From an uncultured Clostridia bacterium (lineage in GTDB: Bacteria > Bacillota > Clostridia > Christensenellales > DTU072), in the NCBI GenBank assembly GCA_944362765.1, contig CALVTP010000017.1:1-33199 (forward strand): a stretch of 33,199 nt of DNA, read 5' to 3'. Of the stretch, positions 5,529-28,872 are shown piece by piece (the stretch's first letter is position 1; each line of letters starts with the position of its first letter). The notes under the pieces are model-generated. The model saw only the letters and a list, made by a program, of their open reading frames with translations, did not search any database and was not told the DNA's origin. Made by a program: the position numbers and the translations under genes.

Positions 5529-6001
5529 TCCCGCCCCGCCTTTTTGCAAAACACTTGTCTTGAATATCTCTTCCTTCTCTTCGATATTATGGAGCAAAGC
5601 GCCGTAAAATATGTCCCAAGCCGCGGGTGGCGGATTAATTTATCCACCGCATCAATGGACTCCTTATGAAAAAAGTCCGTACGGGGGGTACGGACTCTTT
5701 CATAGGTTTTGTTTTAGCGAGCGATTAACGTTCTCCTACTTCTACCAATACGGGGGGAGGGCTACAACCGACCATCCTCTCACTGTAAAATGAAGTCGTC
5801 GAGATGTAGACTACAGTGTAAAGTACGAGATACGGAGCGGATTGGGGCGAAGGAAAAAAGTTGTGATTGGTTTAAACGCTTCTTCCGGCGCAGCCTGCTT
5901 TACCGTTTATCGTAGCAAATTTAATATACTCATAGTACCCGGCAATATTTAAATAATACCGCTTCGAAGAAATTTCTATCGCCCCAGAAAATATCTTTTT
6001 T

Positions 6002-6131
6002 TATAATTTTCTTCCCGCAAGGTTAAAGTAAGAAAACTTTTCAGTTCGCGAAAACAGACACTTATAAAAAAGCTTGTACTCTCGTACAGGCTTTTCCATA
6101 AGGAAGGGATAGAAACGGGAAGAAAATTATA
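6002..6131. repeat. Element A, copy 2
   Basis: 130 bp. The 16-bp arms TATAATTTTCTTCCCG (6002-6017) and CGGGAAGAAAATTATA (6116-6131) are perfect inverted copies. The core carries the usual GTAC-centred hairpin followed by a T tract. Unlike copies at array starts, it abuts a D fragment and not a gene. Its arm again differs from those of other loci outside the shared TTTTCTTCCCG. Confidence 0.7.
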
Positions 6132-6149
6132 TACCCGCAGCTTGGGGCA

Positions 6150-6344
6150 TATTTCACGACGCTTTCGGGCGAAAGAAACAAGTTTCCTCCCTTCAGGAGT
6201 TGCCTCGGAGCGTATGTCGATACAGCCCTTCGCCAATTTCGCCCGAAATCGCAACTAGCAGAGGCTTTATCGCCTCTGTTAGTTGCTTCGCCGCAAACTA
6301 ACGCAAACAAGGCTTTTGTTTGTTTAAACAGCGTTTGCCTTTTT
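6150..6344. repeat. Module E, copy 1 (variable-stem hairpins)
   Basis: The module starts near GGGGCATATTTCACG and contains TTTCGGGCGAAA and its partner TTTCGCCCGAAA. It then has a 15-bp stem (6251-6265 with 6272-6286, one mismatch, loop TTTATC), followed by TTCGCCGCAAACTAACGC. The same flanks recur in reverse at 28505-28705, but the stem sequence there is completely different. Confidence 0.65.
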
Positions 6345-7720
6345 GCTTGCCCCAATCCGCTGCGTATCTCATAGTTTACACGATAGTCAACATTGTTACG
6401 CTTTTCTTTATAGTGTGAGCTGTTTTATAATAATCCCGCATAATTGACCTAAGAATATTTAATAACCCGCAAATCTATCTTTCTAAGACGATATCTCTTC
6501 CTTCTCTTCGGTATTATGGAGCAAAGCGCCGTAAAATATGTCCCAAGGCGCGGGTGGCGGATTAATTTATCCACCGCATCAATAGACTCCTTATGAAAAA
6601 AGCCCGTACGTGGTACGAACTTTTTCAAAAGGATTACGTTTAAGCGAGTGATAAAAGTTCTCTTGCTTTACTCTTGCGGGAAGGGCTATAACAAATAAAC
6701 CCCTCACTATAAAATACAGCCGTCGAGATGTAGACTACCGTGCAAAGAACGAGATACGGAGCGGATTGAGGCGAAGGCGGAGGATATAAGCTGTCTGAAC
6801 AAGTAATAGTTTGGACGCCGGTGTTGCGGGTGATTTTGCGTTAAATGGCGGCAGGAGTGTACAAAAATGTACATGACAGAGACATTTCACGCAAAAGCGC
6901 CCGCAAGAGCGCCTCAATACGCGGATAAAATTTTCTTTCCGCTTCAATTTCTTCCTTGTAATAAATGTTTCTACATGTATTGAACCTTTTCAACTAAAGT
7001 CCGTTTCCTTGAGGAATTAAAGCTTTCTTCTTTTACCTTTGCGGAAAGAAAATTAAATGCCTCACTGTAAAATACAGTCGTCGAGATGTAGACTACAGTG
7101 TAAAGTACGAGATACGGAGCGGATTGGGGCGAAGGTGAAAATGGAAAGCTGTTTGGGCAAATAGAAGCTAGGAGCACCGGTGTCGGGGGTGATTTTTCGC
7201 GAAGCGCCGAAGGGAGTGTACAAAGATGTACATGACTAGAGGCGCCCGTAGGGTGTAACCCTTAAAATTCTATACACTTCGCGGAAAGGCACCCCCGAGA
7301 GCGCCCCTAGCCGCGGGTGGCGGATTAATTTATCCACCGCATCAATGGACTCCTTATGAAAAAAGCCCGTACGTGGTACGAACTTTTTCAAAAGTATTAC
7401 GTTTAAGCGAGTGATAGAAGTTCTCTTGCTTTACTCTTGCGGTGGAAAAATTAATATAAACCCTCACTATAAACCCTAGCCGTCGAGATGTAGACGAGCG
7501 TGTATCGAACGAGATACGTAGCGGATTGGGGCGAAGGTGAAAACGGAAAGCTGTTTGAGCAAGTAGCAGCCGGGAGCACCGGTGTCGGGGGTGATTTTTC
7601 GCGAAGCGCCGAAGGGAGTGTACAAAGATGTACATGACTAGAGGCGCCCATAGGGTGTAGACCTTGAAATCTTATACACTTCGCGGAAAGGCACCCCCGA
7701 GAGCGCCCCAAGCCGCGGGT

Positions 7721-7862
7721 GGCGGATTAATTTATCCACCGCATCAATGAACTCCTTATGAAAAAAGCCCGTACGTGGTACGAACTTTTTCAAAAGGATT
7801 ACGTTTAAGCGAGTGATAAAAGTTCTCTTGCTTTACTCTTGCGGTGGATAAATTAATCCGCC
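7721..7862. repeat. Element A at the 3' end of rpsR
   Basis: 142 bp. The arms at 7721-7743 and 7840-7862 are perfect 23-bp inverted copies (TGCGGTGGATAAATTAATCC at the rpsR side). The right arm contains the last two codons (Ala, Asp) and the TAA of rpsR, which reads in from the minus strand. In rpsR orientation the core gives a GTACcacGTAC-centred hairpin followed by CTTTTTTC, a plausible intrinsic terminator for the rpsF operon. Confidence 0.8.
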
Positions 7863-8176
7863 TTATAAGGCAGGAGAGCCATAAACCTTGCTCTTTTTAT
7901 CGCTTGCGCCAGCGCGCGTTGGTGCTTCACGCACGTTCCCGACATGCGCCTGGGGAGTATTTTCCCTTTTTCGGTGATGAAGCGGGTGCGTTTCTCGCCG
8001 TCTTTACCGGTTTTCTCGGCGCCTTTTTCCATCTCTTTGACGAGGGCGATATAATCTATATCGTCGGTCTTGGTCTGGCAGAAGTAGCAAACCTTCTTTT
8101 TCGGGGCGCGTTTTGCGGGGCGGGGTGCCCTGGGTGTTTCTTTATTTTCCTTGGTTTGAGGAACGGTAGTAGTCAT
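7853..8176 (-). CDS. rpsR: Ribosomal protein bS18
   Basis: 107 residues; binds 16S rRNA with bS6 in the platform of the 30S subunit. The conserved stretch [13 protein letters not shown] is followed by the C-terminal block [28 protein letters not shown] and MALLPY. Compared with typical bS18 (about 75-80 residues) it has a basic, Pro-rich N-terminal extension of roughly 25 residues. It also has a charged insertion of about 15-18 residues ([14 protein letters not shown] region) between DIDY and the RFITEKGK block. Last gene of the rpsF-ssb-rpsR operon, 15 nt after ssb. The final codons and stop lie inside the arm of a repeat element. Confidence 0.95.
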
Positions 8177-8191
8177 ATCAATTCTCCTTTT

Positions 8192-8614
8192 TTAGAAGGG
8201 AAGATCGTCGTCTTCCTCGATTTGGACGGGGCGGGCGTCGTCGACTCTGTGTGCCTTTACCTCGGGGAGTTCCTGAGGCTCGCGGTTGTCGTCGGATTTG
8301 GTGAAGAGGAAATTGACTTCATCGGCGACTATCTCGGTGGTGTAGCGCTTGGAGCCGTCCTGGGCGTCGTAGGAGCCCGTCTGTATAGAGCCGCTGACGG
8401 CGACTCTGCTGCCTTTTTTCAAGATACGCGCGCAAGTTTCGGCGGTATTTCTCCAACAAGTGACCGGCAAAAAGTCGGTTTGTTGATTGCCCTCGCGGTT
8501 GGAATAATTGCGGCGATTGACCGCCAACGTAAAGCGGCAAACGGGGATATTGTTGGGAGTGTACTTTAATTCGGGGTCACGCGTGAGGTTACCGATAAGG
8601 ATACACTTATTCAT
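8192..8614 (-). CDS. ssb: Single-stranded DNA-binding protein
   Basis: 140 residues. The OB fold (residues about 1-105) starts MNKCILIGNLTRDPELKYTP and contains the usual GSRVAVSGSIQTGSYDAQDG strand-loop. A linker rich in charged residues follows, ending in the acidic tip DDDLPF that recruits replication and repair proteins. Sits between rpsF (9 nt upstream) and rpsR, the classic bacterial order. Binds ssDNA as a tetramer at replication forks. Confidence 0.96.
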   Translation of the reverse strand: MNKCILIGNLTRDPELKYTPNNIPVCRFTLAVNRRNYSNREGNQQTDFLPVTCWRNTAETCARILKKGSRVAVSGSIQTGSYDAQDGSKRYTTEIVADEVNFLFTKSDDNREPQELPEVKAHRVDDARPVQIEEDDDLPF

Positions 8615-8623
8615 AATTCCTCC

Positions 8624-8908
8624 TTATGCGAGCTTGGTGATGAGCTGGCGAACGATGTTATCGTTGATTCTCATCTGTCTGTCGATCTCGGCGGGGACGC
8701 CGGGGGCAGCTTCGAATTGCATCAAGACGTAGTAGCCTTCATTCTTGAAGTTAATGGGGTAGGCATATTTTCTGGTGCCCCATTTGTCAAGCATGCCGAC
8801 GGTACCGCCAAGTTCTGCTACAAGGTTGGAGAACTTGTCGATGATAGCGTCTTTGGCTTCGTCTTCGATGTCGTTATCGATGATGAATAAAAGCTGATAC
8901 TTGTTCAT
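8624..8908 (-). CDS. rpsF: Ribosomal protein bS6
   Basis: 94 residues with the bS6 ferredoxin-like fold. It begins MNKYQLLFIIDNDIEDEAKD and has the typical LDKWGTRKYAYPINFKNEGYYVLMQFEA block. Forms a heterodimer with bS18 on the 30S platform. The AAGGAGGT ribosome site (8913-8920 on the minus strand) is close to ideal. First gene of the operon with ssb and rpsR; the three share one promoter upstream. Confidence 0.96.
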   Translation of the reverse strand: MNKYQLLFIIDNDIEDEAKDAIIDKFSNLVAELGGTVGMLDKWGTRKYAYPINFKNEGYYVLMQFEAAPGVPAEIDRQMRINDNIVRQLITKLA

Positions 8909-8925
8909 AGATACCTCCTTTTGGA

Positions 8926-8948
8926 CTTATGGCTCCCGGGGGAGCAAG
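8926..8948 (-). promoter_or_regulatory. Hairpin in the rpsF leader (possible S6:S18 autoregulatory site)
   Basis: The minus-strand leader can fold GCTCC, loop CCCG, GGAGC, with an outer CTT/AAG pairing, just upstream of the ribosome site. Many bacteria control rpsF through a leader hairpin with an exposed CCG bound by the S6:S18 dimer, and a CCG is present in this loop. The match to that motif is only positional and partial. Confidence 0.35.
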
Positions 8949-8973
8949 GGTTATTTGCATAAAATGCTTAATT

Positions 8974-9002
8974 ATTATATATATGAAATAAACTATTGTA
9001 AA
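8974..9002 (-). promoter_or_regulatory. Promoter of rpsF-ssb-rpsR
   Basis: Read on the minus strand: TTTACA (9002-8997), a 17-bp spacer and TATAAT (8979-8974). The leader to rpsF would be about 58 nt and includes a hairpin and the ribosome site. Confidence 0.6.
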
Positions 9003-9323
9003 GCGTTTTCGGCAATTTTTTTATTTTCCGTGTTCGATCTACGCTGCGGAAAAGCCTTTCTAAGCCCTGAACTCAACATTAAAAAAGAAATTTTAGTAAA
9101 ACTTTTCGGCGTATAAGCCGCTGTTTTCAATAAAATATCGTTTTTCAGAGAGCGGCGGGTTAAAAGGCGTTTTCGAATCGAAATTTTACTTTGCGCACAC
9201 TCCAGGTTATTATGTTGTTTTAAATAAATTAAAACATATGGATAAAGTTGCTTGCGGTATAAATTTAACGGTTATTATAAGGTCAAAATACTTTGTCGCT
9301 TGAGAGGATAGTGTAAAATTTTG

Positions 9324-9404
9324 GTGACCGGAGGGTTGCCTGTTTTTGTTTGACCTTTCAACTTAATAAGGCAACCCGCCCGTCACACCTTTGAAAAAAG
9401 GTGT
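9324..9404 (+). other. Two adjacent strong hairpins in an intergenic region
   Basis: GTGAC(cgga)GGGTTGCC at 9324-9340 pairs with GGCAACCC(gccc)GTCAC ending at 9386, enclosing a loop of about 29 nt. The next hairpin follows at once: ACACCTTT, GAAA loop, AAAGGTGT at 9385-9404, a perfect 8-bp stem with a GNRA tetraloop. No ORF spans the region and no T tract follows, so it is not an ordinary terminator. The rest of 9003-9520 shows nothing else I can name. Confidence 0.4.
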
Positions 9405-9521
9405 AAAGTTACCGAAACAATTTATGATGTGGTCGTAATAGATACACAATTCAATTGCAATTGCATATTAATAATATTTGTTACGGCATGGCTTTATCTG
9501 TCAGCAAAATTCGGCGTTTAC

Positions 9522-9550
9522 TTGTAATTTGGTAACGATTATTCTATAAT
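9522..9550 (+). promoter_or_regulatory. Promoter of the MATE gene
   Basis: TTGTAA at 9522-9527, a 17-bp spacer and TATAAT at 9545-9550. The ATG is at 9565, so the leader would be only about 8 nt with no Shine-Dalgarno. Confidence 0.6.
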
Positions 9551-9564
9551 ACATAAATTGTAAT

Positions 9565-10956
9565 ATGGATAACAACGCTGTTGATTACGAAAATAAAAAC
9601 GATTTCTCGGTGGGCTCCGTCAAAAAGAGTATAGTAAAGCTTGCCATACCCTTGACGGTGGCGCAGCTCATCAACGTCCTTTATAACGTAGTCGACCGCA
9701 TCTATATCGGGCACCTCGCCGCCGATTCCACCAACGCGCTGTCGGGCGTCGGCTTGGCGCTTCCCATTATTACCATCATTACCGGCTTTGCCAACATGTT
9801 CGGCATGGGCGGAGCTTCATTGTGCTCGATTGCCCGCGGCGCACATGAGAAAGAACGCGCCGAAGGTATCTTGGGGACTTCCTTCGTCATGATTTTGATT
9901 GTGGGAGCGGTATTGACCGCGCTTCTCGAAGTCTTCGCAGAAGAGGTGTTGTATCTCGTCGGAGCGGGCAGCGAAACGATAGGTTATGCATTGGACTACC
10001 TCGTCATTTACCTTATCGGAACCGTCTTTCAAATGATGGCGCTCGGTATGAACTCCTTTATAAATTCCCAAGGGTTCGCCAAGACCGGCATGTTTACCGT
10101 TTTGATAGGCGCCGTGTTGAATATAGCGCTGGATCCGGTTTTTATCTTTGTCATGGATATGGGAGTCAAGGGCGCCGCCATCGCTACCGTAATCTCGCAA
10201 GTGGTTTCCGCAACCTGGGCTTTAGGGTTCCTGTTTTCTAAAAAAGCCATCATCCGCCTTCGTCCCAAAAATATCCGTATAAATCTCGGGTACCTTAAAA
10301 AAATCACCTCTTTAGGGTTGAGCGCCTTCGTTATGAACGCTTCGACCGGAGTCGTCCAAATCGTCAACAACGTCACTTTGGCGGAGTACGGCGGCGACCT
10401 CTATATCGGAGTCATGACGATTGTGAACTCCGTCCGGGAAATCGTCTACACCCCGCTTCAAGGCATCGCCGGCGGTGCCCAGCCCGTCATCGGTTACAAC
10501 TTCGGCGCCAACCGCGGTGAGCGCGTCCGCGAAGCCATCCGATTTTTGACGCTCATCTCCTTGTGCTTTACAATGGTGATCTGGGGGATCATTTTGATAA
10601 TTCCCGAGGCGGTCATGCGCGCATTCACCCCCGATCCCGCCTTGATAACCGCAGGCGTCCCCGCTCTCAATATCTACTTCTTCGGGCTCTTCCTTGCCGC
10701 TCTCCAATTCTCGGGGCAATATACCTTCGTCGCAGTCGGCAAGAGCAAGGAAGCCATTTTCTTCTCCACATTGAGGAAGGTCGTCATTGTCATACCGCTG
10801 GCGTGCACGCTCCCGTTGATGCCCTCGCTCGGAGTGAAAGGCGTGTTTTTAGCGGAGCCTATCTCAAGTTTCATAGCCTCGACGTTATGCTATCTCACTA
10901 TGTATTTAAGAGTATATAGGAAACTTTCCCCTATGAAGATTAAGAAAGTAAACTGA
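9565..10956 (+). CDS. MATE family multidrug efflux transporter
   Basis: 463 residues with about twelve transmembrane segments in two six-helix halves. It starts with a short polar segment and then SVKKSIVKLAIPLTVAQLIN, which is typical of the NorM/DinF-type MatE domain. The repeat-half motif QPVIGYNFGAN at about residue 310 is characteristic. MATE proteins export cationic drugs or metabolites using Na+ or H+ gradients; the substrate is not predictable. The start has a promoter but essentially no ribosome site. The last dozen or so codons overlap the left part of a repeat element A: the bases from GAAGATTAAG to the stop resemble the element core, so the native C-terminus has probably been replaced. 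Confidence 0.9.
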   Translation: MDNNAVDYENKNDFSVGSVKKSIVKLAIPLTVAQLINVLYNVVDRIYIGHLAADSTNALSGVGLALPIITIITGFANMFGMGGASLCSIARGAHEKERAEGILGTSFVMILIVGAVLTALLEVFAEEVLYLVGAGSETIGYALDYLVIYLIGTVFQMMALGMNSFINSQGFAKTGMFTVLIGAVLNIALDPVFIFVMDMGVKGAAIATVISQVVSATWALGFLFSKKAIIRLRPKNIRINLGYLKKITSLGLSAFVMNASTGVVQIVNNVTLAEYGGDLYIGVMTIVNSVREIVYTPLQGIAGGAQPVIGYNFGANRGERVREAIRFLTLISLCFTMVIWGIILIIPEAVMRAFTPDPALITAGVPALNIYFFGLFLAALQFSGQYTFVAVGKSKEAIFFSTLRKVVIVIPLACTLPLMPSLGVKGVFLAEPISSFIASTLCYLTMYLRVYRKLSPMKIKKVN

Positions 10957-11056
10957 TTTTGCTCGCGAAAAGGAAGTCCTTTGAAATAAGTTCGTACCTC
11001 CCGTACGGACTTTTTTATAAGGAGATATAGAATAGGGGAAATTTTCCTATATACTC
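10910..11056. repeat. Element A at the 3' end of the MATE gene
   Basis: 147 bp. The left arm at 10910-10934 is coding sequence (GAGTATATAGG and on). The right arm at 11032-11056 is its inverted copy with one mismatch in 25. The core has GTACctcccGTAC with a following CGGACTTTTTTATAAGG, in the same orientation relative to the gene as at the other loci. The stop codon at 10954 lies within the element. Confidence 0.75.
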
Positions 11057-11580
11057 TTTTATCCGCGTTTTGGGGCGCTCTCGGGGGTGCCTTTCCGCGA
11101 AGTGTATAAGATTTTAAGGTCTACACCCTATGGGCGTCTCCGGTCATGTACTCTCATGTACACTCCCTTCGACGCTTCGCGAAAAATCACCCCCGATATC
11201 GGCGAACCTGTCTTTTGTCGGTTTAAACTGCGTATGTTTATCACCTTCGCCCCAATCCGCTGCGTATCTCGTACTTTACACGCTCGTCTACATCTCGACG
11301 GCTGTATTTTATAGTGAGGGTTTGGTCGGTTGCGGTCTTTCCCCTATAAAATTGAAAGATAAAACCTGATTTGCTCGCGAAAAGGAAGTCCTTTGAAATA
11401 AGTTCGTACCTCCCGTACGGACTTTTTTTATAAGGAGATATAGAATAGGGGAAATTTTCCTATATACTCTTTTATCCTTCTAATGACAGGAGCGAGACAG
11501 CGACTGTCTTTCCCGAAAGTGCTGTAAAATATGCCACAAAGTGCGGGTTTTGGGGCTGCCTGCGGGGTCAGGCTGTTTTT
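11057..11580. repeat. Repeat array 2 after the MATE gene
   Basis: Contains a C palindrome (11081-11196), an inverted B unit (about 11250-11300) and a second A copy (11338-11469). The core and right arm of that copy (11445-11469) are nearly identical to those of the first, offset by about 411 bp, so this is a recent local duplication. Debris related to the ACAGGAGCGA...CGACTGTC hairpin follows near 11487-11510. No gene is seen. Confidence 0.75.
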
Positions 11581-11586
11581 CCTGTG

Positions 11587-12276
11587 TCAGTCTATTTTTA
11601 TCATTCTGTAACCGACTCCGACGTGGGTCTGGATGTATTGCGGAGAGTCCGGAAGCGGGGCTATCTTTTTTCTCAAGGTTGCCATAAATACTCTCAGCGA
11701 GCCGACGTTACTTTCCCATGCCGATTCCCATATGCTGCGCGTGATGAAGGTATGTGTCAGCACTTTTCCGACGTTTTTTGCAAGAATACATAATAATTTA
11801 TACTCTATCGGGGTGAGATGGAGTTCTTCTCCTGCGAGAAAGACCGAGCCTGCGGCGTAATCTATCGTAAGTTCTCCGTTGACAAACTTTGCGTCGGCGG
11901 TGACGGCGGAGGAGAGGCGGCGGATCGTGGCACGGATCCTTGCCAAAAGCTCTTCCACGGAAAAAGGCTTGGTCAGGTAATCGTCGGCGCCCGAGTCGAG
12001 TGCTTCTATCTTATCGCGGTCGTCGCTTCTTGCGGAGATGACGATAATCGGCATTTCCGACCAGGTGCGCACCTTTTTTATGACTTCAACGCCGTCGCAA
12101 TCGGGAAGTCCCAAGTCCAACAGCATGATATCCGGTCTGTTCGAAGCCGCCAGCATAATCGCCGTTTCACCGTTGCTTGCCGGAATGTGGCGGTAGCCGT
12201 GCGCTTTCAGCGTGGTAGTGATAAGATTGCTTATCGGCGGGTCGTCCTCGACAACCAGGATCGAAGCGTTATTCAT
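11587..12276 (-). CDS. KdpE-like response regulator (OmpR family)
   Basis: 229 residues. The receiver domain (1-115) has the acidic pair DD at 11-12, phosphoacceptor Asp54 in LLDLGLPD, and the conserved Lys in LTKPFS. A winged-helix DNA-binding domain follows (about 130-229), with LTPIEYKLLCILAKNVGKVLTH typical of KdpE. Its start overlaps the sensor gene's end by 8 nt, indicating translational coupling. In known systems KdpE activates high-affinity potassium uptake genes in response to KdpD. No kdpFABC is in view; the nearest potassium transporter genes are ktrAB, directly upstream in the same direction, so those are the likely targets (inference). Confidence 0.88.
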   Translation of the reverse strand: MNNASILVVEDDPPISNLITTTLKAHGYRHIPASNGETAIMLAASNRPDIMLLDLGLPDCDGVEVIKKVRTWSEMPIIVISARSDDRDKIEALDSGADDYLTKPFSVEELLARIRATIRRLSSAVTADAKFVNGELTIDYAAGSVFLAGEELHLTPIEYKLLCILAKNVGKVLTHTFITRSIWESAWESNVGSLRVFMATLRKKIAPLPDSPQYIQTHVGVGYRMIKID

Positions 12277-14098: not shown

Positions 14099-14122
14099 TT
14101 CTCGTATTCCGGAAGGGCGATG

Positions 14123-14134
14123 GTTACTGGTAAC
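14123..14134. promoter_or_regulatory. Dyad GTTACTGGTAAC at the kdpD start region
   Basis: A 5-bp inverted repeat just downstream of the predicted start of transcription. It shares the GGTTAC half with the dyad at 14174-14186 on the other side of the promoter. The pair may be operators of one regulator. Confidence 0.35.
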
Positions 14135-14146
14135 TATACTATAACG

Positions 14147-14175
14147 ATTATACTATATCATAAACGAAATGGCAA
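14147..14175 (-). promoter_or_regulatory. Promoter of kdpD-kdpE
   Basis: Minus strand: TTGCCA (14175-14170), a 17-bp spacer and TATAAT (14152-14147). This lets the sensor-regulator pair be expressed independently of the upstream ktr genes. Confidence 0.6.
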
Positions 14176-14186
14176 CGGTTACCGTT
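14174..14186. promoter_or_regulatory. Perfect dyad AACGGTTACCGTT over the -35 region
   Basis: A 13-bp palindrome overlapping the -35 box of the kdpD promoter, in a position to repress. The regulator is unknown. Confidence 0.4.
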
Positions 14187-14190
14187 TAAC

Positions 14191-14427: not shown

Positions 14428-14429
14428 TT

Positions 14430-20476: not shown

Positions 20477-20674
20477 ATTGCTGCAAATTCCGAAACGGGG
20501 ATTCCGAAAATCGCAAAAAAGGAGCCTGAAAGCGCCATATCCGACAGCTTGACAGAGAAGGAAACCGAGTTTAAGAAAAGCCGTCGGCAAGAGTAAGCCG
20601 GCAAAGAAAATAAACGGGCGGATGTAGCTCCGGACAAAGAACAAATACCAAGCAGGCTATTCTGCCTGAAATAA
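20477..20674 (+). pseudogene. In-frame continuation after the stop of paralogue 1 (decayed tail or read-through region)
   Basis: Reading on from the TAA at 20474 in the same frame gives a hydrophilic, Lys/Glu-rich stretch (PKIAKKEPESAISDSLTEKE). A second TAA comes at 20594, then 25 more residues ending PSRLFCLK before a third stop at 20672. Only two stops in about 200 nt, with a composition like a C-terminal linker, suggests a tail lost by nonsense mutation. Chance openness in an A-rich region is possible. Confidence 0.3.
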
Positions 20675-20708
20675 CGGGAAACAATAGTTAACCTACAGGA
20701 GGGTAAGT

Positions 20709-21176
20709 ATGGATATAAAACTTGCAGCGGGCGAACAGATCGTAAAGCAATGGGATTACGCCAAAACCAAGTCACAGGCGGGGCGCGCGAAACACTCGCT
20801 CATCGTTACCGACAAGCGTCTGATCTCAATTGTTGAGTCGAGAAAGCAGTTAAGCCGCGACGACTTTTTGCTTAAAGAGGTCAACGGCGTTTCCGTAAAG
20901 ACGGGAGCAAATAAAACGATGCTCATTCTCGGGATCGTTCTGTGCTGCTTGGTTATTACGCTGCCGCTCGGCATCATTTTTGTCATTTTAGGAAGAAAGC
21001 GCCAATTTTCCTTGACCATTTACGGCGGCTTCGTGGATGCCTCGCTGATCGATATAGGCGCGTCGGGCGGGATACTTTCGTTGTTCAGACGTAAGAAGAA
21101 ACGCACGAAGGTGAAGATCAGCGGCTCTGCTGCGGAGGAAATAGTGGATACCATCGGATCTCTTATATTAGAATAA
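20709..21176 (+). CDS. Membrane protein with PH-like domain (paralogue 2)
   Basis: 155 residues with the same start pattern as the preceding gene (MDIKLAAGEQIVKQWDYAKTK, then SLIVTDKRLIS). A hydrophobic hairpin at about 75-100 (MLILGIVLCCLVITLPLGIIFVILG) and a basic segment (RRKKKRTKVKISG) follow. Tandem duplication followed by divergence is the simplest account. AGGAGGGTAAGT precedes the ATG. Function unknown. The last codons (Leu, Glu, stop) lie in the arm of an element A. Confidence 0.7.
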   Translation: MDIKLAAGEQIVKQWDYAKTKSQAGRAKHSLIVTDKRLISIVESRKQLSRDDFLLKEVNGVSVKTGANKTMLILGIVLCCLVITLPLGIIFVILGRKRQFSLTIYGGFVDASLIDIGASGGILSLFRRKKKRTKVKISGSAAEEIVDTIGSLILE

Positions 21177-21305
21177 TTTTCTTCCCGCGAAGATTAAAGT
21201 TAGAGAGCTTTTATTGCTCGTGAAAATTAAACCTTATGGAAAAGCTTGTACGCACGTACGAGCTTTTTTCATAAGGAGGTGATTGATGCGGGAAGAAAAT
21301 AATTC
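21171..21305. repeat. Element A at the 3' end of paralogue 2
   Basis: 135 bp. The left arm GAATAATTTTCTTCCCGC (21171-21188) includes the gene's last Glu codon and TAA. The right arm (21288-21305) is its inverted copy with one mismatch. The next A copy's right arm (21695-21716) is a perfect 22-base inverted copy of 21167-21188, reaching one codon further into the gene. Confidence 0.8.
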
Positions 21306-21797
21306 CAATTAGCCGCAGCTTGGGGCGCTCTCGGGGGTGCCTTTCCGCGAAGTGTATGGGTTTATAAGGTCTACACCCTACGGGCGCCTCTAGTCATGTA
21401 CATCTTTGTACACTCCTGCCGGCGCTTCGCGAAAAATCACCCCCGACATCGGCGCTCCCGGCTACTACTTGTTCAAACGGCATAATATTATCGCCTTCGC
21501 CCCAATCCGCTGCGTATCTCGTACTTTACGCGCTCATCAACATCTCGACGGCTTCATCTTACAGTGAGAGTTTGGTCGGTAGAAGCCCTTCCCGCAAAGA
21601 TAATAGTGAGAGAACTTTAATTGCTCGCGAAAACAGACCCTTATAAAAAAGCTTGTACGCACGTACAGGCTTTTTTCATAAGGTAAGACCTGATGCGGGA
21701 AGAAAATTATTCTAATTATCCGCAGCTTGGGGCATATTTCACGGCGCTTTCGGGAAGGACAGGAGCGAAGCGACTGTCCGTTTTGGAGCCAACTCTT
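21306..21797. repeat. Repeat array 3: C, B and second A copy
   Basis: Holds a C palindrome (21331-21446), an inverted B unit (about 21500-21550), a second A copy (about 21588-21716) and a short GGACAG...CTGTCC hairpin segment near 21758-21780. All modules read in the same order and orientation as in arrays 2 and 4. No gene. Confidence 0.75.
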
Positions 21798-21962
21798 ATA
21801 ATACCGAAGAGAAGGAAGAGATATCGTCTTAGAAAGATAGATTTTGCGGCGGAGTGACGAAATGAGAGAGCGGCATACGACGTATGCCGCGAACGATATT
21901 TATATACTCCGCCACAAAAGATACTTTCTAGGGCGATAGAAATTTCTTCGAAGCGGTATTAT
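21798..21962. repeat. Module D, intact copy 1 (165-bp long-inverted-repeat element)
   Basis: Imperfect terminal inverted repeats of about 40 bp (ATAATACCGAAGA at one end, CGAAGCGGTATTAT at the other), an inner pair around GGCGGAGT and ACTCCGCC, and a perfect central hairpin GCGGCATAC, loop GAC, GTATGCCGC. No coding capacity; MITE-like. Confidence 0.65.
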
Positions 21963-22141
21963 TGAAATATAGCCGGGTTCTATAAGCAAATATAAAGACA
22001 GCATAGGGCATTATTTAAACAGGCTTTATCCAAAGAAACTCTTACAATAAACAATGTTATGTATTGAATCGGTATGCTATTATTTCAGCACGAAAACAAA
22101 TACATATCTTCAAATTAATTCAATAAATTTATCAAAAACTA

Positions 22142-22170
22142 TTGCAATTTTTCCCGCTTTATGATATAAT
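22142..22170 (+). promoter_or_regulatory. Strong extended -10 promoter with no ORF downstream
   Basis: TTGCAA at 22142-22147, a 17-bp spacer, and TATAAT at 22165-22170 preceded by TGA, an extended -10. Nothing that looks like a gene follows for about 850 bp, so it probably drives a non-coding transcript. Bases 21963-22141 show nothing else. Confidence 0.65.
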
Positions 22171-22335
22171 TATAGGGGACGGATACGGATACTCGATAAG
22201 CTCTCACTCCGTTGGCTCGAAGGGTGTTTACCCTTGGGGCAAACACTTGGGCTACGCACTTTTGCCGGCGCAAAAGTGCGCGCCCGCGCTCGCTCGAATC
22301 GTGGCAGAGTCGTGAGTGGCGTTGCAGTTCTACAT

Positions 22336-22725
22336 CACAAGGTGGTCGCTTCGCTCCGATTAGACTAGACCCACCCAACCGCCCACAAGGTTGCCGCTGC
22401 GCGGGATAGGGATATTGATATCAGAATAATCATACCGTTATTCCGCTTCAGCGTTCTCATGGCGATAACATCACACAAGGTTGCCGCTACGCGGATAAGA
22501 GGGAAGAAAGTAAGTATACCTTTGCTTTTAACTTATTACGATATCGATTCACAAGGTTGTCACTGCGTGGATTAGAAATATATAATTTCATGCTGCTATC
22601 CTGTATGCCCATTGCAGCATATTTACACAAGGTTGCTGCTACGTGGATTAGAAATATAAAAGAATCATGTTGTCATTTTGTATGTTCGGCGCAGCAGATT
22701 GCTACAAGGTTGCCGATGCGCGGGT
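22336..22725 (+). repeat. Array of CACAAGGTTGCCGC... units, about 76-bp period
   Basis: Copies start at 22336 (divergent), 22384, 22474, 22550, 22626 and 22703; the last four steps are 90, 76, 76 and 77 bp. The core CACAAGGTTGCCGCTGCGCGG folds as CCGC, loop TGC, GCGG. Changes in the copies keep pairing (CAC/GTG at 22550, CTGC/GTGG with G-T pairs at 22626). A second stem in each spacer is different but complementary: GTTAT/ATAAC, TAAGT/ACTTA, ATGCTGC/GCAGCAT, TGTTG/CAGCA. The spacing is too short and too degenerate for CRISPR. Confidence 0.6.
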
Positions 22726-22744
22726 CGGAGGTGAAATTTTGGCG

Positions 22745-22770
22745 AAAAAAAGAGCCCGCTTGCCGGCTCT
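22745..22770 (-). terminator. Hairpin with T tract on the minus strand
   Basis: Minus strand: AGAGCC, loop GGCAAGCG, GGCTCT, then TTTTTTC. It would stop transcripts coming from the right; on the plus strand the hairpin is preceded by A's and followed by ATTAATT, so it could also mark the end of the candidate RNA. Bases 22771-23010 hold only a CGTCGTA...TACGACG hairpin near 22869-22887. Confidence 0.5.
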
Positions 22771-23014
22771 ATTAATTGTGGAGGAGGGATTGAGAAATTT
22801 AATTTGGTTTTTACACTTTATCCGATGCCCTGCAAGCGTTTAAAAAGGGCTGTGTAGCGATTCAGTGCCGTCGTATTTCCTACGACGCTTATATCTTAGC
22901 AACATATTTTGAAAATCGCGGTATGCGATAGTTGAATGTTTGGTGAAATAGCTTTGTCGTTTAGCTTAAATTGCTTCATTTTAGGGCGTTCGGCGTTAAA
23001 ACGACGTCACTGTG

Positions 23015-23043
23015 TTGCATTTATCGATGCGATGCGGTATAAT
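23015..23043 (+). promoter_or_regulatory. Promoter giving a leaderless HAD phosphatase mRNA
   Basis: TTGCAT at 23015-23020, a 17-bp spacer and TATAAT at 23038-23043. The ATG begins at 23050, seven bases after the -10 box, exactly where transcription is expected to start. Confidence 0.6.
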
Positions 23044-23049
23044 TTAGCC

Positions 23050-23694
23050 ATGTCAGACATCAAATGCGTTTTATTCGATATGGACGGCACGTTGTGCAAT
23101 ACTTTATTAGATCTCGCACGCGCGGTGCAAGCGGCAATGGCAAATTTCGGTTGCCCTCAGCCTACCGACGACGACGTCCGCCACTTTGTCGGGAACGGGT
23201 CGTTTAAACTTATCGAGCTTGCACTACCCGCCGGCAGGGAAGCGCTTTTAAAGGACGCAGAACAATATTTTCAACAATATTACCGCTCTCATCTGACGGT
23301 GCATACCCGTCCTTACGACGGGATACCGGAACTGTTGCAGAGGCTGTCCGCCGCAGGTATTAGTTTAGGAGTCGTGTCCAACAAGGCGCAAATACCGCTG
23401 GAAACCATTGTTTCGACGTTCTTTCCCGAAACGTTCGGAGTTGTTGTAGGCGGCAGTCCCGATTATCCGTTGAAGCCGGCACCCGATATGCTCCTGAAGG
23501 CAATGGCGGAGCTAGGGGTAAGTGAGAACGAAACTCTTTACATAGGCGATTCCGACGTCGACGTCAGGGCGGCAAAGAATGCCGAGGTCAGGGGAGTCTT
23601 TTGCGACTGGGGCTTTCAGGGTGCGGAAGTGCTCTCCGAAGCAGGCGCCGAAAATATCGCGTTTCATCCCTCGGATATTTTAAAATACATATAA
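23050..23694 (+). CDS. HAD-superfamily phosphatase, phosphoglycolate phosphatase-like
   Basis: 214 residues from the ATG at 23050; a frame open further upstream (22936) crosses the promoter and is rejected. Motif I is FDMDGTLCNT (catalytic aspartates DxD near residues 9-11). Motif II is VVSNKA, motif III the Lys in PLKPAPD, and motif IV IGDSDVDVRAAKNA. A helical cap of subclass C1 lies between motifs I and II. These are the features of Gph/PgmB-type enzymes that hydrolyse small phosphate esters. The exact substrate cannot be named. The gene appears to be translated from a leaderless mRNA. Confidence 0.88.
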   Translation: MSDIKCVLFDMDGTLCNTLLDLARAVQAAMANFGCPQPTDDDVRHFVGNGSFKLIELALPAGREALLKDAEQYFQQYYRSHLTVHTRPYDGIPELLQRLSAAGISLGVVSNKAQIPLETIVSTFFPETFGVVVGGSPDYPLKPAPDMLLKAMAELGVSENETLYIGDSDVDVRAAKNAEVRGVFCDWGFQGAEVLSEAGAENIAFHPSDILKYI

Positions 23695-23783
23695 TTCAGG
23701 CTTTTTAACGGCATTTTTCGGGGTGGAACTATCTTCCGGCAAGCTTTTGCTTTTGGGGGGTAGTATTTTGTTTTCGACTGTGT

Positions 23784-23789
23784 TATAAT
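23784..23789 (+). promoter_or_regulatory. Extended -10 box of the lipase gene
   Basis: TGTTATAAT (TG, one base, TATAAT) with no good -35 box at 17 bp, as expected for an extended -10 promoter. It lies 53 bp before the ATG at 23843. Confidence 0.45.
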
Positions 23790-23842
23790 GAATATTATCA
23801 ATCTAAGCCATAAATCAAGACTTACATTGTTCGGAGGCGGTA

Positions 23843-25252
23843 ATGAAAAACAAATTGACATTTATTGTGGCTTTTTTGGTGGCGGTAACGTTGATTACCG
23901 TAGCCGTTTCGGGCTGTAACGATAAAGAGGGCGATCCCGCTCCCGTCGATGAGGTTTACTACCCCGCCGACGAGGCTCTTTATGCCGACGTTTACCCCGA
24001 TTACGCGAAGGAGGTCTACCTCGAATACGTCTTCGATCCGGAGCTTTCCGCCGAGCAAAACGATCAACTTGAAAAGGAATTGCATGAAACGGGACTCTAT
24101 TGGATAGACATCGACGCGAACGGCGAAGTCGTCTGGGTTCCCGCCGATACCGCCGAAGGCGCGGCGCTCATCGACCCCGACAAACCTACCGTCGTCAATA
24201 TCCACGGTATGATGATGGACGGCTATACGGCGGTCGAAAAATACTACGTCAACTCCACCATAGGTTCGGCGGAGGAATTGGGGCTGCCCGAGGGCACCGA
24301 CTACGCCTCCGTCAAGACGTTGAAGCTTTGGAAGGACAAAGGATGGAACGTCGGTATCTACAATTGGGCGCGCTTTACCGCCGAAAGCATCAACTTTTGG
24401 GACATAGAAAACAAAGTGTGGTCGACCAACGGCACTACCAACGTGCGCTGGGCGAGCTCCGACACAGTTCAACATGACTACCCGATGCAATACTCCGTCG
24501 GAGAGCTGTTCGCCGCCGACTATATCCGTGCCGTCAACTTGCTTCCCGACGACTTCGGTAAGTCCGAGATCCGCTTTACCGCGCACTCCATGGGCGGACA
24601 ATTGGTAGCCGCCGGAGCTTTCCTGCTTTCCGAAGTTTCGAAGGGCGCAACCCCCCAAATCTCACCCGACAAGCTTCCCGACAGAATTACGATGGACGAC
24701 ACCTTCTTCGGCGTCAAGCTGGCGCTGGGGGACAGCGAAATAGATATGTTCCAAAAGGGCTTGACCGTGCGCTGGTCCGGCGAAGCAATGCCCGGGGATC
24801 GCTGCGGCATGGCGTACGCCGAAGCTATCAAAGCGCTCGCTTATCAGGGCGTCGTCATAGAGTATTACTCTTATGACGGCTCGGCGCTGCACCTTGCCAT
24901 TTCCCCCGACATACGCGAAATTCTGTTGGACAATACCTGCTACATCCTGATGAATCCCGACTACGAACACTACTTCACCGCCGTCGGTAAAACCTACATG
25001 AAAATGGGCGACGGACATACTGCCGAAAGACAATTTTCGCAATGCTCCATCGTGCGTGACTACCCGGAGGACGATTCCGGCTTGACCGACGAACAAAAAA
25101 TCGCCTATGCCAACGCCCTTCCCACCGATGAGCTTAGAAAACTTGTCGGAAAAGTCTTCGAGATCACCGAAGGTGCAACGACGCTGACCACTACCGATGA
25201 TGTATACACCGAATTGACTAAAGAGCAGGTGTTGACACGGTTTAGTTTGTAA
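23843..25252 (+). CDS. Lipoprotein with alpha/beta-hydrolase (lipase-like) domain
   Basis: 469 residues. The signal peptide ends VSGC with Cys25 lipidated, so the enzyme is tethered outside the cell. From about residue 113 the alpha/beta-hydrolase core appears: VVNIHGMMMDG (oxyanion HG at 121-122) and the nucleophile elbow TAHSMGG with Ser249. An acidic residue and a late His would complete the triad, with candidates in MDDTFFG and MGDGHTAE. GGAGGCGG precedes the ATG. Likely hydrolyses an ester or acyl glycan outside the cell; specificity unknown. The stop codon lies inside the arm of an element A. Confidence 0.85.
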   Translation: MKNKLTFIVAFLVAVTLITVAVSGCNDKEGDPAPVDEVYYPADEALYADVYPDYAKEVYLEYVFDPELSAEQNDQLEKELHETGLYWIDIDANGEVVWVPADTAEGAALIDPDKPTVVNIHGMMMDGYTAVEKYYVNSTIGSAEELGLPEGTDYASVKTLKLWKDKGWNVGIYNWARFTAESINFWDIENKVWSTNGTTNVRWASSDTVQHDYPMQYSVGELFAADYIRAVNLLPDDFGKSEIRFTAHSMGGQLVAAGAFLLSEVSKGATPQISPDKLPDRITMDDTFFGVKLALGDSEIDMFQKGLTVRWSGEAMPGDRCGMAYAEAIKALAYQGVVIEYYSYDGSALHLAISPDIREILLDNTCYILMNPDYEHYFTAVGKTYMKMGDGHTAERQFSQCSIVRDYPEDDSGLTDEQKIAYANALPTDELRKLVGKVFEITEGATTLTTTDDVYTELTKEQVLTRFSL

Positions 25253-25379
25253 TTTTCTTCCCGCAAGAGGAAAGTAAGAGTACTTTAATTGCTCGCTATA
25301 ACAGACCCTTATAAAAAAGTTCGCCACCCGTGCGGACTTTTTTCATAAGGAGCTATTGATTGCGGGAAGAAAATTACAA
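25247..25379. repeat. Element A at the 3' end of the lipase gene
   Basis: 133 bp. The left arm TTGTAATTTTCTTCCCGCAA (25247-25266) includes the last Leu codon and the TAA. The right arm (25360-25379) is a perfect 20-bp inverted copy. The core has the hairpin followed by CGGACTTTTTTCATAAGG, in gene orientation. Confidence 0.82.
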
Positions 25380-25833
25380 CCCGCGGCTTGGGGCGCTCTC
25401 GGGGGTGCCTTTCCGCGAAGTGTACAGGATTTAAAGGTATACACCCTACGGGCGCCTCTAGTCATGTACATCTTTGTACACTCCTGCCGGCGCTTCGCAA
25501 AAAATCACCCCCGACACCGGTGTTCCCGGCTGCCACTTGCTCAAATAGCTTTCCATTTTCACCTTCGCCCCAATCCGCTGCGTATCCCGTTCGATACACG
25601 CTCGTCTACATTATTACGGCTGTATTTTATGGTGATGGGTTTATTTGTTATAGCCTTTCCTGCAAGATTAAAGTTAGAGAACTTTTATTGCTCGCGAGAA
25701 CTAAAACCTTATAAAAAAGCTTGTACGCACGTACAGGCTTTTTTCATAAGATAAGACCTGATGCGGGAAGAAAATTACAACCCGCGTAGCAGGACAGGAG
25801 CGAAGCGACTGTCCGTTTTGGAGTTAAGCCTTG
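25380..25833. repeat. Repeat array 4: C, B and second A copy
   Basis: C palindrome at 25399-25514, inverted B near 25568-25620, and an A copy whose right arm GCGGGAAGAAAATTACAA (25763-25780) again carries the inverted lipase tail. A GGACAG...CTGTCC segment follows. The order is the same as in array 3. Confidence 0.75.
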
Positions 25834-25998
25834 ATAATACCGAAGAGAAGGAAGAGATATCGTCTTAGAAAGATAGATTTTGCGGCGGAGTGACGAAATG
25901 AGAGAGCGGCATACGACGTATGCCGCGAACGATATTTCTATACTCCGCCACAAAAGATAATTTCTAAGGGGATAGAAATTTCTTCGAAGCGGTATTAT
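25834..25998. repeat. Module D, intact copy 2
   Basis: 165 bp, the same length as the copy at 21798-21962 and very similar to it throughout, with the same central GCGGCATAC...GTATGCCGC hairpin. Confidence 0.65.
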
Positions 25999-26420
25999 TG
26001 AAATATAGCGGGGTACTATGAGTATATTAAATTTGCTATGATAAACGGTAAAGCAGGCTTCACCGGTATGTGCAATTAAACCAACCACATCTCTTTTTTC
26101 GCCCCAATCCGCTCCGTATCCCGTACTTTACACGCTCGTCTACATCTCGACGACTTCATCTTACAGTGAGGGGATGGTCGGCAGAAGCCCTTCCCGCAAG
26201 AGGAAAGTAAGAGCACTTTTATTTCTCGTGAGAACAAAACCTTATGGAAAAGCTTGTACGCACGTACAGGCTTTTTTCATAAGGTAAGACCTGATGCGGG
26301 AAGAAAATTACAACCCGCGTAGCAGGACAGGAGCGAAGCGACTGTCCGCTTTGGAGCCAACTCTTATAATACCGAAGAGAAGGAAGAGATATCGTCTTAG
26401 AAAGATAGATTTTGCGGCGG
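25999..26420. repeat. Repeat array 4 continued: B, third A copy, truncated D
   Basis: Inverted B (about 26099-26150) and an A copy with right arm GCGGGAAGAAAATTACAA (26296-26313, lipase tail again). The first 55 bp of a D element follow (26366-26420) and stop at GCGGCGG, where unrelated sequence leading to the RhuM gene begins. Confidence 0.7.
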
Positions 26421-26535
26421 AATATTGTAAAAATGAATTATCACTCACACGTCATGGCGCCAAAAGCGTTATGCGTTTTTATCATTGTAAAGGATGACAT
26501 TTTTTTGTGTGAGTTGGATTAAATCAGAAATTTAT

Positions 26536-26564
26536 TTGAAAAAGTACGCGGGATCATATATAAT
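26536..26564 (+). promoter_or_regulatory. Promoter of the RhuM-family gene
   Basis: TTGAAA at 26536-26541, a 17-bp spacer and TATAAT at 26559-26564. The ATG is at 26596 with only a weak GAGAAG as ribosome site. An inverted pair ACTCACAC / GTGTGAGT (near 26443 and 26503) lies upstream. Confidence 0.6.
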
Positions 26565-26595
26565 AAAAATAGAAAGATAAGTGTGAGAAGTTCGC

Positions 26596-27600
26596 ATGAA
26601 AACGCTAATAAAAGAGAATCAGCATTTTATCATCTTTAAGACCGAAGATAGCAAAATTGAAGTTGATGTTCGCTTTCAGGGGGAAACCGTATGGTTGACG
26701 CTTGATCAAATGTCTATGCTGTTTGAAAGGGATAAGTCTACTATCTCCCGCCACATCAAAAATATTTTTGGGGAGGGCGAACTTGTGCGTGAAGCAGTTG
26801 TTGCAAAATTTGCAACAACTGCCGCAGACGGTAAAACCTATCAGGTTGATTACTTTAATCTTGATGTCATCATATCTGTCGGGTATCGCGTAAAATCACT
26901 GCGTGGTACACAATTTCGTCAATGGGCTACAAAACTAATCAACGAATATATCCGTAAAGGGTTTGCGCTTGACGATGACAGGTTGAAGGAACTTGGAGGA
27001 GGCGGTTATTTTAAGGAACTTTTGGAGCGCATCCGAGATATTCGCGCCTCCGAAAAGGTATTTTACCGCCAGATACTTGATATCTATGCAACGAGCATAG
27101 ACTACGATCCTCACTCCGAAATTTCCATTGCGTTCTTTAAAAAAGTACAGAACAAAATTCATTACGCCGTGCATGGTCAAACGGCTGCCGAAGTCATCTT
27201 TAACCGTGCAGATGCAGAAAAAGAATTTATGGGACTTACCACGTTTACGGGCAACCGCCCCCATCTGCAAGATGCCGTTATAGCAAAGAATTATCTCAAC
27301 GAAAAAGAATTGCGCAGCCTCGGTCAAATCGTTTCAGGGTATCTTGATTTTGCAGAAAGACAGGCTGAGCGAGAGCAGCCCATGACGATGGCTGACTGGT
27401 CAGCACATTTAGATCGGATACTTACAATGAGCGGTGAAAAACTACTTGTCGGAGCAGGAGCCGTCAGCCACGAGCAGGCAATGGATAAGGCAAAGTCAGA
27501 ATATAAAAAGTATCAGGCAAGAACTCTCTCCGAAGTGGAGCAAGCATATCTTGATTGCATAAGTGAATTAAATCAGAAAGCGGAAAATGATAAAAAATAG
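26596..27600 (+). CDS. RhuM-family protein (virulence RhuM / Fic-associated type)
   Basis: 334 residues. The opening domain carries VDVRFQGETVWLTLDQMSMLFERDKSTISRHIKNIFGEGEL, the hallmark of RhuM-family proteins, which begin with a winged-helix-like region. TTAADGKTYQVDYFNLDVII and GYRVKSLRGTQFRQWATKLI follow. The family is widespread on genomic islands and near restriction or defence genes; its biochemical role is not established. It stands alone here between repeat arrays, with a truncated D element before it, so it was probably acquired. Its TAG stop lies inside a copy of the guaA-tail arm that starts the next array. Confidence 0.85.
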   Translation: MKTLIKENQHFIIFKTEDSKIEVDVRFQGETVWLTLDQMSMLFERDKSTISRHIKNIFGEGELVREAVVAKFATTAADGKTYQVDYFNLDVIISVGYRVKSLRGTQFRQWATKLINEYIRKGFALDDDRLKELGGGGYFKELLERIRDIRASEKVFYRQILDIYATSIDYDPHSEISIAFFKKVQNKIHYAVHGQTAAEVIFNRADAEKEFMGLTTFTGNRPHLQDAVIAKNYLNEKELRSLGQIVSGYLDFAERQAEREQPMTMADWSAHLDRILTMSGEKLLVGAGAVSHEQAMDKAKSEYKKYQARTLSEVEQAYLDCISELNQKAENDKK

Positions 27601-28282
27601 AATGGGAGTAATTTTATTCCCGTATCAATATCTCCTTATGAAAAAAGTCCGCACGGGTGGCGAACTTCTTCATAAGGGTTTGTTTTCGCGAGCAATAAAA
27701 GTACTCTAATTTTAATCTTACGGGAAGGGCTTCCACCGACTATCCCCTCATTATAAAATACAGCCGTCGAGATGTAGACTGCCGTGTAAAGAACGAGATA
27801 CGGAGCGGATTGGGGCGATATTGGGGGTGATTTTTCGCGAAGCGTTATCCTCATGGGCGGGAGGTGGGTTAAGTCTAATCGGAGCAGAGCGACTACCTTG
27901 TCGCCGCTTGCGGCGAAACCTCGAACAAAATCAAAACAACCAAGCAATAAAGGTTTTGTTTTTGTTCGAAAAAGGCGGAGCGGAACCGTCAGATTGACTC
28001 GGAATGATTATGTTATTAATAAAGACCGTTAATGCGGGTGTTTGTCTCAATAATAAGCTAGCTTTAAGCGGGGTGCGCCGAGGAGATTCGATAGGCGAAG
28101 GCATACGCCGAAAGATTTTTTGATTTATCTAAGAAAACGTCCGAAGGCAATACCCCTCGGGGTCTTGTCGAGGGCGCTTTCGACGATAAGGCGGAAAAGA
28201 TTCGGCGTATGTCCTTCGAATATCGGATAGACGAGGCATACGAGTCAAGCCACGAGCTTCGCGCTCCGCCGGAGACGCGGGT
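27597..28282. repeat. Repeat array 5, first part: A, B, C remnant and palindromes
   Basis: The A copy starts with an arm (27597-27623) resembling the guaA 3' end (ATAGAATGGGAGTAATTTT). B follows near 27769-27820, then the first 25 bases of a C module fused to other sequence near 27824-27848. At 27862-27900 the reverse of a motif also seen at 22336 occurs (GGTAGTCGCTCTGCTCCG on the minus strand). A long stem lies at about 27921-27972 (TCGAACAAAA...TTTTTGTTCGA). Bases 28070-28270 hold another imperfect palindrome (CGAAGGCATACGCCGAA and TTCGGCGTATGTCCTTCG). No gene. Confidence 0.65.
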
Positions 28283-28716
28283 ACGATAGAATGGGAGCAA
28301 TTTACTTCCCGTTCAGGTCTTACCTTATGAAAAAAGTCCGTACGTGGTACGAACTTCTTCATAAGGGTTTGTTTTCGCGAGCAATAAAAGTACTCTAATT
28401 TTAAATTTTACGGGAAGGGCTTCCACCGACTATCCCCTCACTATATAATAACGCCGTCGAGATGTAGACGAGCGTGTAAAGTACGAGATACGCAGCGGAT
28501 TGGGGCAAGCAAAGAAAAAAGGCTGTTTGAACAGACAGACGTCGGGATTGCGTTAGTTTGCGGCGAAGCAGGCAATGATGCCTCGTGAGGCATCATTGCC
28601 TGCGGTTTCGGGCGAAACTCCCGCCGATTAGTATCGACATACAATCAAGGGAGCCCCTGTGGGAAACTTGTTTCTTTCGCCCGAAAGCGTCGTGGAATAT
28701 GCCCCAAGACGCGGGT
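28283..28716. repeat. Repeat array 5, second part: A, B and module E copy 2
   Basis: The A copy has a left arm at 28283-28312 carrying the guaA tail with the stop changed to CAA. B lies at about 28456-28507. E occupies 28505-28705, with a perfect 15-bp stem (28568-28582 with 28589-28603, loop TCGTGA) whose sequence is unrelated to that in E copy 1 although the flanks match. Confidence 0.7.
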
Positions 28717-28872
28717 ACGATAGAGTGGGAGTAATTTACTTCCCGTTCAGGTCTTACCTTATGAAAAAAGTCCGTACGTGGTACGAACTTCTTCATAAGG
28801 CTCTTTTTTCGCGAGCAATAAAAGTATTCTATCTTTACTCTTACGGGAAGAAAATTACTCCCACTCTATCGT
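28717..28872. repeat. Element A at the 3' end of guaA
   Basis: 156 bp. The arms at 28717-28746 and 28843-28872 are inverted copies over 30 bp with one mismatch. The guaA-side arm encodes the last five residues, Thr-Ile-Glu-Trp-Glu, and the TAA. In guaA orientation the core forms GTACcacGTAC and runs into CGGACTTTTTTCATAAGG, a likely terminator. Confidence 0.85.

Follow-up and report, generated by a model that had tools for sequence, protein, structure and literature searches.

Element T, a hairpin of about 125 – 155 bp, often carries in its outer arms an inverted copy of the end of the gene on which it sits, and its right arms were probably shaped by fold-back template switching with that gene as template. 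It was analysed in a stretch of 33,199 nucleotides (hereafter the window; positions 1 to 33,199 of contig CALVTP010000017.1, assembly GCA_944362765.1) from an uncultured Clostridia bacterium of the Christensenellales. An earlier note on this DNA had claimed that five repeat arrays each begin with a hairpin element on the 3' end of a gene, and recomputation of the arms bore this out, as T opens all five arrays and its outer arms reach into the adjoining gene. In gene orientation, the usual order is the gene, TAA, TTTTCTTCCCGC, a conserved segment around TTATTGCTCGCGAAAAC, the core hairpin, which leads into TTTTTTCATAAGG, then GCGGGAAGAAAA, TTA, some bases of the gene end in inverted form, and a spacer repeat from about CCGCGG. 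The consensus (about 125 bp) starts with TTTTCTTCCCGC; the inner arm pair TTTTCTTCCCGC/GCGGGAAGAAAA is constant in most copies, and a gene-specific extension of 0 to about 15 nucleotides lies outside this constant part. The claim that arm sequence differs between loci holds for the outer extension, which follows the gene, but not for the inner arm. Similarly, the contrast drawn with a normal transposon, expected to have the same ends everywhere, overlooks that the ends of T are constant and that what varies is an extension outside them. The copies opening the five arrays are:

7721-7862, minus strand: T on rpsR, flush with the TAA stop; arms 7721-7743/7840-7862, 23 bp, 0 mismatches.
10908-11058, plus strand: T on the MATE gene; arms 10908-10934/11032-11058, 27 bp, 1 mismatch.
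21167-21309, plus strand: T on the PH-like gene, flush with the TAA stop; arms 21167-21188/21288-21309, 22 bp, 2 mismatches.
25247-25379, plus strand: T on the lipase-like gene, flush with the TAA stop; arms 25247-25266/25360-25379, 20 bp, 0 mismatches.
28717-28872, minus strand: T on the short guaA paralogue, flush with the TAA stop; arms 28717-28746/28843-28872, 30 bp, 1 mismatch.

These arms pair over 20 – 30 bp with 0 – 2 mismatches. The pairing given before for rpsR, lipase and guaA was recovered, whereas the PH-like locus gave 22 bp with two mismatches instead of 18 with one, and the MATE arms were recomputed as listed. The gene-specific extension is strong at guaA (where the arms take in the last five codons, ACGATAGAGTGGGAG), rpsR and MATE, amounts to 3 nucleotides at lipase, and is imperfect at the PH-like gene. 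The MATE reading frame passes through the left arm of T and ends at a TGA (10954-10956). Pfam supported the names MATE, rpsR (Ribosomal_S18) and guaA; the PH-like and lipase proteins matched no Pfam family, both names being those of the earlier note.

The window's own genome (G000) is a 1.71-Mb draft of 68 contigs, in which many T copies lie near or touch contig ends. A profile search (threshold of at least 40 bits) of the window and 40 further stretches, about 230 kb in all, revealed T as a dispersed family with 114 places. To what extent the right arm follows the host gene was scored outward from the stop in 39 copies (34 from G000 and five from relatives, L161 and L162 included). Own pairs reached a mean of 7.49, versus 3.56 ± 0.23 after swapping of the right arms, with a maximum of 4.97 in 20,000 permutations; the match between arm and gene hence exceeds chance genome-wide. 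A score of at least 7, or approximately four or more gene-specific bases, was found for 20 of the 39 copies. Likewise, an inverted copy of at least 9 nucleotides, stop included, occurred within about 260 nucleotides of 9 out of 37 open reading frame (ORF) ends with T, against 2 out of 235 ordinary ORF ends. It is very unlikely that T is an ordinary dispersed repeat with fixed ends whose matches to genes arose by chance or through misassembly of a metagenome bin. The constant inner arms and the fragmented draft with many copies near contig ends would fit such a view, but the permutation contradicts chance, and T also stands at TAA stops in relatives whose genomes were assembled separately (Ca. 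Stercoripulliclostridium merdigallinarum and an uncultured Clostridia bin), in one of them with a 12-nucleotide tag from its own ribosomal L17 gene.

It looks as though the gene copy was inserted between T and the repeat that follows. In 47 of 48 copies (a set without L161 and L162), the spacer motif begins 0 – 7 nucleotides beyond the paired arm, although arms of 16 to 30 bp occur. When only the right side is measured, motif and arm lie 6 to 20 nucleotides apart, and the longer the gene match, the greater this distance (rho 0.60, p 2e-5; 44 of the 48 copies, four having been missed by the script, MATE among them). This test replaced an earlier correlation of 0.81 that was partly built in, the distance being the sum of arm and gap. 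Point mutation followed by selection would instead overwrite the start of the spacer. This bears on a second explanation, namely that selection keeps a long RNA stem around the stop codon, for mRNA-end stability, termination or slowing of ribosomes, and that compensatory mutations match the arms. Indeed, the five window copies fold very stably (z -8.2 to -10.8, 200 shuffles each, MATE and guaA stretches slightly trimmed), T lies flush at stops, and hairpins of repetitive extragenic palindromic (REP) type up to 15 nucleotides from a stop codon stall ribosomes (PMC12306157). Yet the right arm shows insertion rather than substitution, only one of the 16 mismatches within paired arms is G-U compatible, unmatched changes are confined to the right arm (MATE row aside), and the extension is missing in about half of the copies, which together make stem selection a distinctly unlikely cause. 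The core hairpin had been read as running into a T run; this T run pairs with an A run, and a terminator scan of 21100-29000 listed 15 sites, T cores not among them. Rfam families gave no match in the window at gathering score.

The two arms also change together. At 15 constant arm positions in 44 copies of G000, 57 sites were changed, of which 36 carried the identical change in both arms, against 3.55 expected for independent arms; 12 were changed on the right only, five on the left only, and four differently on both sides. Without the MATE row, misplaced by the script, the counts were 33 matched, 10 right-only, 0 left-only and 1 different. In addition, arms are longer in more diverged copies (rho -0.34, p 0.024). 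Comparison across species pointed to the same behaviour at one locus. The MATE gene carries T in G000 and in its congener G006, where the gene is split over two contigs, but not in the orthologues of G001 and G009. The gene ends of G000 and G006 differ at five bases, three of which are, by eye, repeated exactly in the respective right arms. At pheA, the G000 tag TAAACAATTA fits the codons of its own gene; G006 reads TACAAACAGCTG and lacks T.

A further characteristic, absent from the earlier note, is the exact start of T at the TAA stop in most gene-side cases. Of the 114 places, 44 were classed as gene-side, and many copies lie within arrays with no gene on their left. An ORF of at least 60 codons was found at 42 of the 44 gene-side copies, and a TAA stop directly precedes the constant arm at 32 of them; as gene-side and array-internal classes were set by hand, largely by the nearby ORF end, this is not a fraction of all copies. 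The other ten ORFs read into T or stop 7 – 17 nucleotides ahead of it. These counts do not cover copies after a T-run or in another repeat, nor those internal to arrays; L069, which a contig end truncates, is also left out, as are L068:2966 and L081:2944, where the ORF stops 21 – 25 nucleotides before T. TAA terminates 33 of 37 ORF ends with T, versus 125 of 235 background ends, which include spurious ORFs. According to Pfam, the host genes include those for ribosomal proteins L7/L12, S21, L28 and S18, a chaperonin, GAPDH, a glutamate-type dehydrogenase, DNA polymerase III alpha subunit, an iron hydrogenase and GMP synthase. In two different genes (L195:1586-1707 and L205:1509-1630), TAAGTAC directly precedes the constant arm, and the left flank also seems carried along or rewritten. 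The two guaA paralogues, one short (339 codons, window 28855-29865) and one full-length (515 codons, L085:1829-3373), both have T at the stop with a nearly identical tag.

Comparison with related genomes lacking T at the same gene ends, as the earlier note had proposed, indicated that the stops are native. For five host genes, readable congeners (11 genomes between them for the short and full-length guaA paralogues, seven for rpsR, 11 for pheA and six for the dehydrogenase) stop at the same place or no more than one codon away from it, and what follows is unrelated sequence without T; the stops of these genes are hence native, and T came later. T is in these cases a repeat placed with single-base precision at native stops of core genes, and to our knowledge no mechanism is known that does so. 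The GNAT-family gene (L079) is a counter-example, as its congeners keep ..IYWYYF.. and continue, whereas in G000 T cuts in afterwards; in a sister genome, the native DNA at this entry point already reads TTATTTTC, which is arm-like. On contig C51, two convergent genes have T flush on both stops, and no recognisable native intergenic region is left.

Alternatively, the gene copy may be made at insertion. The left end of T would be joined to the gene at the stop, and the free right end would fold back, be extended along the gene by a polymerase and then be ligated to the repeat downstream; the single-strand step could come from a Y1 transposase of IS200 type, and the inverted copy would be the signature of an unusual transposition. 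The tag indeed sits between the right end of T and the spacer motif, T is flush with TAA at the 32 copies mentioned, and Y1_Tnp matches occur in five of six T-bearing genomes (G000 counted, G006 not) and in two of seven congeners without T, a small and uncorrected sample. A Y1 transposase is a candidate mobiliser of T. Y1 transposase genes number one open and one broken in G000, and three in G001. Still, copying at insertion seems improbable, given the gene-side copies without an own-gene tag, L203 bearing the end of another gene, MATE arms that changed after the split of G000 and G006, and the presence of T in G006 despite its lack of a Y1 match. In G001, one of the three IS200-type Y1 transposase genes has a single T, accompanied by half a spacer, at a distance of about 330 bp (C1:230676-231513; L089). 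Mobilisation by a reverse transcriptase, as in diversity-generating retroelements, retrons or group II introns, was rejected, no RVT_1 being found in the six T-bearing genomes (G000, G001, G003, G005, G006 and G009; drafts, 91 – 99% complete).

Template switching or arm-to-arm conversion, which amount to one process here, is favoured over selection for a long stem because the gene copy looks inserted, the arms change jointly, the MATE arms partially track their gene, and the T-bearing genomes gave no reverse transcriptase match. Among the three causes offered in the earlier note, the first two are hence preferred and stem selection is less supported. T is a short palindromic repeat of mobile appearance that lodges at the 3' ends of genes, in G000 mostly exactly at TAA, and its constant arms form a strong hairpin. 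During replication, the new strand may fold back on its own left arm, briefly copy the gene beyond it, and return to its proper template. Inverted gene-end bases would thereby be inserted beside the right arm, or the right arm would be corrected to the left one. Since the gene side is coding and cannot vary freely, the gene would act as the template and the right arm would follow; right-only mismatches may be changes still awaiting correction. Later duplication of T plus spacer would spread the tag into an array, and a foreign or generic tag would still be seen where a copy has recently moved or has been overwritten by another locus. Single steps of such a process have been described: template switching turns imperfect palindromes into perfect ones in E. 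coli (PMC7202029), makes the arms of inverted repeats alike in yeast (PMC8604942), and is able to generate stems (PMC8794818). This literature backs these steps and not the T family itself.

Several observations weigh against this explanation. Firstly, 19 of the 39 scored copies show little gene-specific match (score below 7). Secondly, the strand would return close to the spacer motif with a constancy that is unusual for template switches at random. Thirdly, many matched changes are shared by related copies, so that their effective number is smaller; the TTTTCCTTTGCCC group gives 15 of the 36 and two guaA copies give two, and the register for this count was chosen by best pairing. Fourthly, MATE is the sole orthologous pair in which the right arm followed the gene after the split, with two of the five bases not repeated exactly, and no copying event was directly observed. 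Lastly, in the PH-like and L082 arrays, inner copies fit the gene better than the gene-side copy does, which needs an extra overwriting step. The tag of the gene-side copy is generic or foreign in both, the imperfect right arm at the PH-like gene being closer to the end of the GNAT-family gene at L079.

A foreign tag was also found at L203, beside a gene weakly resembling that of an energy-coupling factor (ECF) transporter, where the right arm ends in GAAAAATGG plus TAA, which is how the FAD-linked oxidase gene at L206 ends. As both loci are close to the ends of contigs that might adjoin each other, this tag may reflect an exchange within one array and not a jump. Taken further, T would be a mobile hairpin directed to stop codons, into which the inverted end of the host gene is written, its right arm being a rewritable label of the gene that it occupies or has left (L203 with the end of the L206 gene), and fold-back copying being part of integration. 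This bolder scenario is rather unlikely. At L068, the left flank itself resembles a right-arm tag followed by the start of a spacer.

The remaining features of the window arrays, several of which repeat the tag of the local gene, are:

5637-5757, minus strand: distal T of the rpsR array, with an rpsR-type right arm.
6007-6128, plus strand: T of the rpsR array in opposite orientation, of the class after a T-run (..CTTTTTTTATAATTTTC).
6564-6683, minus strand: further T of the rpsR array, with an rpsR-type right arm.
6929-7052, minus strand: copy of a weaker T subfamily in the rpsR array (profile, 46 bits).
7328-7447, minus strand: second T of the rpsR array, retaining an rpsR-type right arm.
11339-11453, plus strand: second T of the MATE array, with a MATE-type right arm.
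21310-21587, plus strand: spacer repeat between T copies, prototype of the repeat of about 290 bp.
21588-21708, plus strand: second T of the PH-like array, with a right arm that matches the end of the PH-like gene.
25657-25776, plus strand: second T of the lipase array (profile search).
26190-26309, plus strand: third T of the lipase array (profile search).
27610-27727, minus strand: third T of the guaA array, whose guaA-type right arm adjoins the end of a RhuM-family gene.
28299-28417, minus strand: second T of the guaA array; its right arm is of guaA type.

The stop of the RhuM-family gene overlaps the guaA tag of this distal copy (27595-27640). A second, partly palindromic repeat family, D (TATCGTCTTAGAAAGATAGATTTTGCGGCGGAG..), occurs in the window at 25780-26060 and 21750-21960, as well as near several T copies in L062, L063, L070, L074, L076 and L087; D itself seems to host T copies after the T-run (..CTTTTTTTATAATTTTC). 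Many arrays close with a T in opposite orientation (L062, L063, L071, L074, L076-L078, L081, L085 and L087), and entire arrays may have inverted T copies as their boundaries.

Concerning its spread, T was matched 45 times and the spacer (query 21305-21600) 55 times in DNA searches of G000. A covariance model retrieved T in six of 40 genomes of the bacterial family, with at least 89 matches in G000, nine in G005, four in G006, three in G001 and one each in G009 and G003, the weakest being marginal; none was retrieved in the 27 of these 40 genomes that belong to other genera. Scanning of genome contigs for the arm pattern yielded 11 stretches, five of which look like true T by their core (L155, L156 and L161-L163); the other six have interiors unrelated to T and were taken as chance. 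The same scan gave no match in viral contigs. Distant T-like matches lie at gene ends in L170 (G003), L174 and L177 (G001), and L169 (G009), with arms of quite different sequence that are nevertheless mutually paired; in L170, the arms have about 24 nucleotides in common, including the last codons and TGA.

If the explanation by template switching is true, T is a natural record of this process at dozens of loci in one genome, well-paired arms need no selection for RNA structure, and a functional stem cannot safely be read from matched arm changes. The literature searches turned up no account of a family like this one. With REP and REPIN sequences, T shares short palindromes at gene 3' ends, many copies and arrays. 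Of the predicted REPs, 446 of 4,072 in E. coli lie up to 15 nucleotides from a stop (PMC12306157), and a REP is a palindrome of 20 – 40 bp with GTAG or CGTC at one end (PMC3733652). T was not assigned to them by palindrome size and end, as it measures about 125 bp and starts with TTTTCTTCCCGC; it further differs in its conserved GCTCGC segment on one side, its frequent start exactly at TAA, and arms that vary with the gene. Similar to miniature inverted-repeat transposable elements, T is short, non-coding and dispersed, with terminal inverted repeats, but these lengthen with the host gene. No direct target duplication was seen in comparison with the empty sites of congeners for five genes, native sequence to the right of the arrays not having been recovered; immediately outside the right arm there is usually TTA, the stop in inverted form. 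Integron attC sites are hairpins near stop codons, arranged in arrays, whose arms pair despite varying sequence. T resembles them in each of these respects, but its identified hosts are ordinary chromosomal genes, and its array units usually bear the tag of the local gene. Finally, quasipalindrome template switching in E. coli, yeast and RNA genes would share with T the growing alike of arms by fold-back copying, changes of whole stretches in single events, and the creation of stems (PMC7202029, PMC8604942 and PMC8794818); matched changes in both arms, by which it is recognised, are found in T as well. In T, the process would differ in acting on a dispersed family within one genome, in taking new arm sequence from the coding end of each host gene, and in leaving a locus-specific tag that is copied through arrays.

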